Under the pieces are notes generated by a model that worked only from the letters and a program-made list of their open reading frames with translations, did not search any database and had not been told where the DNA came from. The position numbers and the translations under genes were made by a program. A stretch of 57,816 nucleotides of DNA, taken from assembly GCA_017631635.1 (NCBI GenBank), contig JAGBSX010000007.1, positions 1 to 57,816 of the forward strand, written 5' to 3'. Origin of the DNA: Clostridia bacterium (GTDB lineage Bacteria; Bacillota; Clostridia; Christensenellales; RUG350). Positions 53,815-55,369 of the stretch are shown piece by piece (within the stretch, counting starts at the first letter, position 1; each line of letters begins with the position of its first letter).

Positions 53815-53862
53815 GTATCTAGTGTAGTGGGGTTTACACAATAATTAAGGTTGGTGAAAATT

Positions 53863-54138
53863 ATGATGATTACAGACGTTCGCATTAGAATTGTCAAGAA
53901 GGATGATGCCAAATTGAAGGCAGTTGCATCGATTACTATTGACGATTGCTTCGTAGTACACGACATCAAGGTTATCGAAGGGGCTGAAGGCAACTTCATC
54001 GCTATGCCAAGTCGCAAGACTCCAGAGGGCGAATACAAGGACATCGCACATCCTATCAAAGTGGCAACTAGAGAAGAAATAAAGAATCTAATTCTCTCCG
54101 CATACGCCAAAGCAGTAGCTGAAGCGGACGCAGAGTAA
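53863..54138 (+). CDS. spoVG: SpoVG RNA/DNA-binding regulator
   Basis: 91 aa from the ATG at 53863 behind [59 protein letters not shown] match SpoVG throughout. SpoVG binds nucleic acid and controls septation, capsule or virulence in different Bacillota, so it does not prove sporulation. An ATG at 53866 is an equally good start. Confidence 0.95.
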
Positions 54139-54200: not shown

Positions 54201-54344
54201 ATAAAAATAATTCTTCCCTTATCCTTGACGCTGAGTATATTTATCCACACGTCCCCCTATCGACATTTTAATATCTAACAAATAAAAAAAAGTTTGGGCA
54301 AATTTGCTGTTCCGTTAGGGATTTTTAGTTCGTATTAAAAATGT

Positions 54345-54386
54345 AGCCCACTATACTTCGCAAAAAGCGAAATATGGTGGGCTTTT
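54345..54386 (+). terminator. Terminator-like hairpin within the element
   Basis: AGCCCAC... CTTCGC (54345-54361), AAAAA loop, GCGAA ... GTGGGCT (54367-54383), then TTTT. Confidence 0.6.
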
Positions 54387-54414
54387 CTTATCCACAAAAG
54401 ATTAATTAATATAA

Positions 54415-54586
54415 GTTATATTTTTAGCCTCATGGCTAAAAGTGATATGCAAGTATCTTGCGTTATATTTTGACCTGTGGTCAAAGTTATATTATATTTG
54501 CCATAACTTACCCTGTGGGTAAATATAACTTTGCATAGCAAAATATAACTGCGAAAGCAATATAACTTGCCGATAGGCAAATATAG
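54415..54586. repeat. Nested array of mini-hairpins with GTTATAT/ATATAAC separators
   Basis: Seven short stems with 3-4-base loops: TTTTAGCC/GGCTAAAA (54422-54441), GCAAG/CTTGC (54449-54461), TTTGACC/GGTCAAA (54469-54485), TTACCC/GGGTAA (54508-54522), TTTGC/GCAAA (54530-54542), TGC/GCA (54550-54559), TTGCC/GGCAA (54567-54580). GTTATAT occurs three times on the left (54415, 54462, 54486) and ATATAAC three times on the right (54523, 54543, 54560), so the whole array is one large palindrome centred on the fourth stem. Confidence 0.75.
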
Positions 54587-54589
54587 TTG

Positions 54590-54622
54590 TGGCGTAACGA
54601 TAAATCCCTATCGCTACGCCAC
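54590..54622 (-). terminator. Stem next to yebC end
   Basis: GTGGCGTA-CGATA / TATCG-TACGCCAC around AATCCC; follows yebC by 21 bases. No strong T-run, so termination is uncertain. Confidence 0.5.
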
Positions 54623-54643
54623 TAATACCCAAACTTGTTTATT

Positions 54644-55369
54644 TTATTCTTCTTCCTCTTCTGGCAAGATAGCATTGTGATATACGTTTTGAACGTCGTC
54701 GTTGTCCTCTAGCATATCTATAAGTTTTAGGACACTATCCACTTTGTCTAGAGGGTCTACCATATCGTTGGCTACCATCTCTAGTTCTGCACTCTCTACC
54801 TTGAGGCCATTTGCCTCCAACGCATTTTTGACTGCCATCAATTCGGTAGGATTGCAGTATATACAAAATACCTCTCCCTCGTCTACCAAATCATCTGCGC
54901 CTGCCTCTAAAGCATACATCATCATATCCTCTTCGGAATAACTCTCCTTTTGCACTATGATGACGCCCTTGCGAGTAAATAGATAGGATACAGAGCCCAA
55001 TGCTCCACCCATTTTGTCAAATGCGTGTCTTACCTCACCACCCGTACGATTACGATTGTCGGTGAGAGTCTCCACTACAAATGCTGTACCTGCAGGTCCA
55101 AATCCTTCGTATACAATTTCTTCGAAATTGACCTTGTCTCCTTCGCCTGCTGCTTTCTTGATACTACGTTGGATATTGTCGTTTGGCATATTAGCCGCTT
55201 TGGCTTTGGTAATTACCATCTTGAGTTTGAAGTTGGTATCAGGGTTTGGTCCACCCATCTTGACAGCCATGGCTATCTCACGGCCTATTTTGGTAAATAC
55301 GTTTGACCTAGCCTTGTCAGCCTTGCCTTTTCTTGCTTGAATATTGTGCCATTTGCTATGTCCTGACAT
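54644..55369 (-). CDS. yebC: YebC/PmpR family transcriptional or translational factor
   Basis: 241 aa. SGHSKWHNIQARKGKADKARS is the signature start; GGRNRTGG-like TDNRNRTGGEVRHAFDK, the ALEAGADD and EEEE acidic tail are typical. YebC proteins bind DNA as regulators, and YebC2-type members act on ribosomes stalled at prolines. TAGGAGG gives a strong ribosome site. Starts 12 bases after the TrmH-type gene. Confidence 0.96.
   Translation of the reverse strand: MSGHSKWHNIQARKGKADKARSNVFTKIGREIAMAVKMGGPNPDTNFKLKMVITKAKAANMPNDNIQRSIKKAAGEGDKVNFEEIVYEGFGPAGTAFVVETLTDNRNRTGGEVRHAFDKMGGALGSVSYLFTRKGVIIVQKESYSEEDMMMYALEAGADDLVDEGEVFCIYCNPTELMAVKNALEANGLKVESAELEMVANDMVDPLDKVDSVLKLIDMLEDNDDVQNVYHNAILPEEEEE

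Follow-up and report, generated by a model that had tools for sequence, protein, structure and literature searches.

The window, by which we mean the whole stretch of 57,816 nucleotides that was analysed, contains between the convergent genes spoVG and yebC an array of seven mini-hairpins and eight 7-base separators (54415-54587). The left four separators are GTKATAT (three GTTATAT and one GTGATAT) and the right four are three ATATAAC and one ATATAGT, so that the right-side type is ATATMAC/ATATAGT. The array is real and goes beyond chance: its core (54400-54600) folds as RNA with a minimum free energy z-score of -5.25 against shuffles, and the region 54284-54645 reaches z = -10.4 as RNA and -10.0 as DNA, no shuffle being equally good. 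The features of the locus are listed in Table 1.

Table 1. Features of the spoVG-yebC interval (hp, mini-hairpin)
Feature	Position	Strand	Basis
spoVG, upstream host gene, outside the element	53851-54138	+	PF04026, E 1.6e-34
Host-terminator left arm: A-tract and AAGTTTGGG, pairs with 54628-54636	54284-54298	+	Permutation test; closes predicted fold
Dispersed element, ~311 nt	54316-54626	+	Homology extent among own-genome copies; flanks aligned by eye
Left end motif TAGGGATT, complementary to right-terminal-hairpin loop AATCCCTA	54316-54323	+	
Left terminal hairpin AGCCCACTATACTTCGC/GCGAAATATGGTGGGCT then TTTTCTT, terminator-like	54345-54383	+	Kept in copies
TTATCCACA, DnaA-box-like, conserved in many element copies	54388-54396	+	
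Left half-array: GTTATAT, GTGATAT, GTTATAT, GTTATAT with hp1-hp3 between	54415-54492	+	Layout; covariation
Separator GTTATAT	54415-54421		
hp1	54422-54441		
Separator GTGATAT	54442-54448		
hp2	54449-54461		
Separator GTTATAT	54462-54468		
hp3	54469-54485		
Separator GTTATAT	54486-54492		
Centre segment TATATTTGCCATAAC	54493-54507		
Centre TATATTTGCC, long-range partner of 54576-54585	54493-54502	+	Covariation across copies
Right half-array: hp4-hp7 with ATATAAC, ATATAAC, ATATAAC, ATATAGT	54508-54587	+	Layout; covariation
hp4	54508-54522		
Separator ATATAAC	54523-54529		
hp5	54530-54542		
Separator ATATAAC	54543-54549		
hp6	54550-54559		
Separator ATATAAC	54560-54566		
hp7	54567-54580		
GGCAAATATA, 3' strand of hp7 and separator; pairs within hp7 or with centre	54576-54585	+	
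Separator ATATAGT	54581-54587		
Right terminal hairpin GTGGCGTAACGATA-AATCCC-TATCGCTACGCCAC	54589-54622	+	Kept in copies
Host-terminator right arm: CCCAAACTT and T-rich tract	54628-54645	+	
yebC, convergent host gene, outside the element	54644-55369	-	PF01709 and PF20772

The seven mini-hairpins with mirrored 7-base separators described in the initial annotation are thus present and better than chance, by the fold z-scores and by a pattern control (see below), and several details of that description need correction. It counted three separators per side where there are four, GTGATAT on the left and ATATAGT on the right being included, and it placed the mirror axis in the TTACCC/GGGTAA stem, which is part of the right half, the axis lying in the centre segment. 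It also took the core (54415-54586) for the entire feature and overlooked both ends of the element, its terminal hairpins and the enclosing host terminator; homology among copies spans 54316-54626. Its view that the array is not CRISPR, REP or a known riboswitch stands, as there is no match to a known structured RNA at gathering score in the window (Rfam 15), which also rules out a stand-alone riboswitch or other known RNA. Its statement that the array matches no class does not, as we group it with the elements associated with IVP/S23p, the protein family of 23S rRNA intervening sequences.

The dispersed element and its copies

Judged from the homology among copies, the array is only the core of a dispersed element of ~311 nt. 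Full-length relatives have in common the order left end TAGGGATT, left terminal hairpin, TTATCCACA, left half-array, centre, right half-array and right terminal hairpin, and the loop of the latter, AATCCC, is complementary to the left end of the element. No IVP/S23p (PF05635) ORF is present in the window copy.

In the own genome (1.3 Mb) the core is matched 59 times and the extended sequence 62 times, with more than 20 long copies that are 74-95% identical and have unrelated flanks, which rules out a unique palindrome. As a control, the pattern of three forward separators has 82 matches in this genome and the reversed pattern none. The number of right-hand units differs between copies. Many own-genome contigs (C2, C5, C18, C39, C44, C45 and C53) end within arrays; the assembly thus seems to be broken by the repeats, and the true copy number is probably higher. 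Several variants were observed in the own genome: a larger branched hairpin, TTTTTCGAGAGAAAAATTC...TTTCTCTCGAAAAA, takes the place of hp3 in two copies (C18:19818-20036 and C33:5233-5451), copies on C8, C20, C22 and C24 have another inserted hairpin cluster in common, and three long arrays (C33:570-920, C54:4119-4304 and C3:9960-10190) consist of right-hand-type units only, with up to ~15 separators and without a left half.

The triplet-separator pattern occurs in 32 of the 297 genomes of the order and is absent from the two nearest genomes (G001 and G002). Outside the order it was found in three of 199 genomes, where the matched sequences are unlike hairpin arrays by eye. In the GTDB species collection, the matches listed bear titles of gut and rumen Clostridia assemblies. 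Viral contigs (IMG/VR) gave no exact match to the hp7-type pattern, and a phage origin was discarded for the pattern searched.

Conservation of the structure

Covariation was analysed in 44 cores from the own genome, relatives and rumen or gut assemblies. In the seven hairpin slots 91-98% of the stem cells pair, compared with means of 49-89% when the 3' halves are redealt, and base changes on both sides of the stem were found in all six hairpin slots scored for them. Slot pairing above shuffles and both-sided changes support the initial proposal of selection on structure, and neither of the two outcomes that the annotation had set against its own reading, a unique array and stems devoid of compensatory changes, was found: there are many copies in the own genome and the stems covary.

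In addition, a long-range helix can form between the centre TATATTTGCC and the 3' strand of hp7 with the separator after it (GGCAAATATA), and it covaries across copies (TATATTCGCC/GGCGAATATA, TATATTCGTTCC/GGAACGAATATA and GATATTTGCC/GGCAAATATC). This helix is not absolute, since it is broken in a minority of the own-genome copies (TATATTTACC). Because the 3' strand of hp7 can be used either by hp7 or by the centre, the long-range helix and hp7 are alternatives; this hints at a switch or at folding in two steps.

Position of the copies in host genomes

The flanks of the window copy pair across the element (AAAAAAAAGTTTGGG ... CCCAAACTTGTTTATTTT). Although flanking sequences outside the element differ among copies, the two flanks of a copy pair with each other, the left one carrying an A-tract and the right one a T-tract: in 22 copies the pairing of matched flanks has a mean of -15.8 kcal/mol, compared with -10.5 kcal/mol for mismatched flanks, and none of 20,000 permutations was as low. 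Most full-length copies lie in the loop of a gene-specific intrinsic terminator, just 3' of a stop codon, with left ends mostly 27-75 nt past it. The simplest reading of these observations is insertion into the loops of pre-existing, often bidirectional terminators. Some copies are behind a complete terminator and not in its loop (C39:19451; L069, L070 and L112), and other subtypes of the element are directly 3' of a complete terminator, some of them following a tRNA gene.

Convergent gene pairs hold about half of the copies, compared with 2 of the 49 gene pairs in the window, and divergent pairs hold none; orientations were taken from automatic gene calls, which scored the window copy as tandem although it is convergent. 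Copies at other convergent gene ends, which the initial annotation had proposed to look for, therefore exist. The spoVG-yebC synteny is lost in the seven relatives compared, which offer no empty site for the window insertion. No constant target-site duplication was seen by eye; the repeated terminator half in L119 could be one. There is no rRNA match in the window (Rfam), and the window copy is not in an rRNA gene.

It is very improbable that these copies form a family of trans-acting structured non-coding RNAs, transcribed from their own loci and not mobile, in which the arrays would be protein-binding hairpins. Conservation of the >>>><<<< architecture over many genomes would fit such a family, as would the covariation, including that of the long-range helix that competes with hp7; however, dozens of dispersed copies per genome, in unrelated terminators and with gene-specific flanks, the variable number of right-hand units and the lack of an Rfam match in the window all argue against it.

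Association with IVP genes in the order

Next to two arrays in rumen or gut assemblies lies an ORF of 117 residues, with matches to TIGR02436 (6e-33) and PF05635 (3e-29 or better). IVP/S23p is a four-helix bundle of ~115 residues, for which we know of no catalytic activity; 2rld, whose structure is solved, is a relative. The own genome carries five IVP genes and one fragment. The intact gene (C3:35611-35958) is placed between a left and a right half-array, a layout also found in L064 and L054, and another copy (C52:40111), beside an array, is interrupted by a stop. In a second layout of gene-bearing elements the entire array is 5' of the IVP gene. The gene-bearing segment of ~640 bp is 82-95% identical between genomes or loci with different flanks and has abrupt ends.

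To avoid circularity, 94 IVP loci, picked in the 297 genomes of the order by protein similarity alone, were read. Inverted runs of the separator (6-mer) of at least 3+3 are present in 35% of these loci, compared with 1% of random regions (five cases, all of the same array kind) and 0% of shuffles; a weak 2+2 score is reached by 12% of random regions. Separator types differ by IVP subfamily (GTKATAT, GCGATAT, GTGATGY, ATGATG, RTGAAGY, RTGAATT, RTGAAAT, GTTATGA and GCTAAAT). When these types, labelled by eye from the flanks before tree building, are placed on the IVP tree, 13 changes are needed (minimum 9; shuffled mean 44; none of 200 shuffles as low), which indicates that the separators within an element all change as a set, along with the protein linked to them. 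The type of separator and the IVP protein are thus inherited as one unit, a co-inheritance that follows from linkage alone and is not proof of binding. At the level of genomes, an IVP gene is present in 21 of the 25 array-bearing genomes, compared with 75 of 297 overall (P = 1.4e-10, genomes being treated as independent). The IVP gene was not found in four array-bearing genomes (G030, G208, G243 and G264); arrays can therefore persist without a detectable IVP.

Other peculiarities of individual IVP loci can be mentioned. In L111 (5099-5491) and L084 (6211-6600) the gene-bearing element is followed by an ORF of ~130 residues without a Pfam match, with common sequence again beyond or beside it, which makes it a possible cargo. 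In L208, L224, L231, L245, L260, L263 and L270 the IVP stop overlaps the start of the next gene, as if the two were translationally coupled. Downstream genes as systematic cargo were considered and dropped, the picture being mixed and many of these genes being probably ordinary neighbours. In L187 the IVP gene has on each side nine near-perfect tandem hairpin units separated by GTGATG, much more regular than other arrays.

By inspection and alignment, the gene-bearing copies L009, L084 and L111 have the array, the right terminal hairpin and an end of the CATAGGGATT type in common with the gene-less ones. Ends shared with a gene-bearing partner, together with the many dispersed non-coding copies with unrelated flanks, are features of a MITE.

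Alternatively, the element could be the MITE of an ordinary transposase, for example of the IS200/IS605 or integrase type, with the IVP gene as cargo or accessory factor. Non-autonomous copies are indeed far more numerous than gene-bearing ones, subterminal hairpins recall single-strand transposons, and an rve-type integrase fragment lies beside one own-genome copy. Yet this fragment adjoins a single copy, and no transposase is common to the gene-bearing copies inspected, in which the common segment is the IVP gene only (plus one Pfam-less ORF in two copies); we consider this origin unlikely.

We find it quite unlikely that the element is primarily a host-serving 3'-end structure, that is an enlarged and recopied bidirectional terminator or mRNA-stabilising structure, domesticated and spread for the protection of transcript ends, with a purely historical link to IVP. 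The copies just 3' of stop codons, often between convergent genes, the terminator-like terminal hairpins and the enclosing terminator stem, the very stable fold (z about -10) and the maintenance of the structure by compensatory changes are all in favour of such a role. Intact IVP genes inside the same arrays, separator types that track the IVP protein, the 82-95% identity of gene-bearing copies despite unrelated flanks and the absence of the triplet pattern from the nearest genomes G001 and G002 speak against it, although they are compatible with a secondary benefit to the host.

IVP genes outside the order

IVP genes were also surveyed in 199 genomes of the phylum outside the order. Five are in 23S rRNA (L284, L289, L292, L296 and L302, recognised by conserved 23S motifs and for L284 also by Rfam), two are in RNase P RNA (L291 and L293) and others are intergenic; each of the seven RNA genes carries IVP in sense orientation. 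The L291 insertion occupies the apical loop of a hairpin in the RNase P RNA model, taken to be P12. The two RNase P RNA genes (L291:1229-2003 and L293:1229-2003 (minus)) come from two genomes of one genus; each has IVP in the hairpin loop and consequently spans 775 nt instead of about 370.

The flanks of the IVP genes outside the order contain inverted tandem repeats, for which a period of 7 is the best lag in 23 of 29 cases, compared with 67 of 600 controls (11%). In Coxiella, the intervening sequence (IVS), which occupies a former tetraloop site, carries heptameric repeats (GACAGAT) adjoining the S23p gene (PMC4990558). We infer homology between the heptamers of IVP loci and the 7-base separators of the window, which would be such heptamers spread apart by hairpins.

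Nature of the element and proposed mechanism

The feature of the window is quite probably a MITE-like copy without a gene, from a family of mobile elements centred on IVP/S23p. We file it as a gene-less derivative and not as a full member because it has no IVP ORF, though gene-bearing relatives have one. Its mobility is suggested by the dispersal; the loci read yielded no enzyme that could move the element, be it a transposase, a reverse transcriptase or another.

In the mechanism that we propose, the element would be recognised through its constant 7-mers, which would be homologous to the tandem heptamers on either side of IVP genes in 23S rRNA, and the variable hairpins would be spacers that hold the 7-mers unpaired and accessible in a folded single strand, either RNA or lagging-strand DNA. 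An IVP oligomer, supplied in trans, would bind the folded array of gene-less copies. The element would enter stable hairpins at their apical loops, in terminators, rRNA helices or RNase P RNA, aided by a host or trans-acting enzyme; these loops would be the sites where insertion does least harm, and the element's own terminator-like hairpin could restore termination for host genes.

More broadly, IVP/S23p proteins may define a class of minimal mobile elements that is large and has so far gone unrecognised. Its members would recognise 7-base repeats arrayed along a folded single strand, and their targets would be the apical loops of stable hairpins, as in terminators, 23S rRNA and RNase P RNA. 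Classical IVS of rRNA would then be only the visible tip of this class, and one bacterial order would have invented hairpin-spaced arrays and mass-produced gene-less copies; we put this forward tentatively, as possible rather than probable. IVS/IVP elements are already known, and the window type is a relative of that known kind. In the literature searched, with most subscription journals and all preprints outside its scope so that a prior description is possible, we found no description of gene-less, hairpin-spaced, terminator-borne relatives with dozens of copies, of the common 7-mer anatomy or of the RNase P site, and no paper tying heptamer arrays, IVP genes and terminators together. Where rRNA intervening sequences and their S23p protein come from and what they do has been called unclear, and their origin and mobility are left unexplained (PMC4990558). 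A common anatomy is offered here for S23p genes, inverted 7-mer arrays and insertion in hairpin loops of rRNA, RNase P RNA or terminators, and together with the dispersed gene-less copies it makes the old idea of mobility directly testable in gut Clostridia. It would also account for a conspicuous repeat that breaks genome assemblies.

Comparison with known systems

Excision from the transcript by RNase III is a criterion of the IVS/IVP class, as are inverted heptamer repeats and inverted complementary ends that extend a host hairpin; in the window copy the separators are inverted 7-nt repeats, and the complementary ends form an outer stem that closes the predicted fold. The 23S rRNA IVS with an S23p/IVP gene (PF05635, TIGR02436) resembles our element in its protein family, in hairpin-loop insertion and inverted complementary ends, in heptameric repeats adjoining the gene (Coxiella GACAGAT, PMC4990558) and in its patchy distribution. 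In contrast with this IVS, the window element is in a transcription terminator and not in rRNA, its 7-mers are spread apart by variable mini-hairpins, and it is a copy without a gene from a family with dozens of dispersed copies per genome.

Intergenic heptamer direct repeats (e.g. TAACTGA) have been described in Beggiatoaceae, Cyanobacteria and Bacteroidetes, where horizontal transfer is suspected by a mechanism that is not evident (PMC4679880). As described, they resemble the window element in being seven-base, intergenic and patchy in distribution, but they are direct tandem repeats with no reported link to IVP. A resemblance of PF05635 to Avd of diversity-generating retroelements has been noted (PMC10053308), and IVP matches the Avd model NF033474 at E 0.0027, below its cut-off, as a remote homologue; unlike a diversity-generating retroelement, the loci read showed neither a reverse transcriptase nor template or variable repeats. 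Finally, MITEs and repeats of the REP, REPIN or BOX type are, like the window element, short, non-coding and palindromic, with many dispersed intergenic copies; the window element differs from them in being a multi-hairpin array with constant 7-mer separators, and in that its linked gene encodes a four-helix bundle and not a RAYT or IS transposase.
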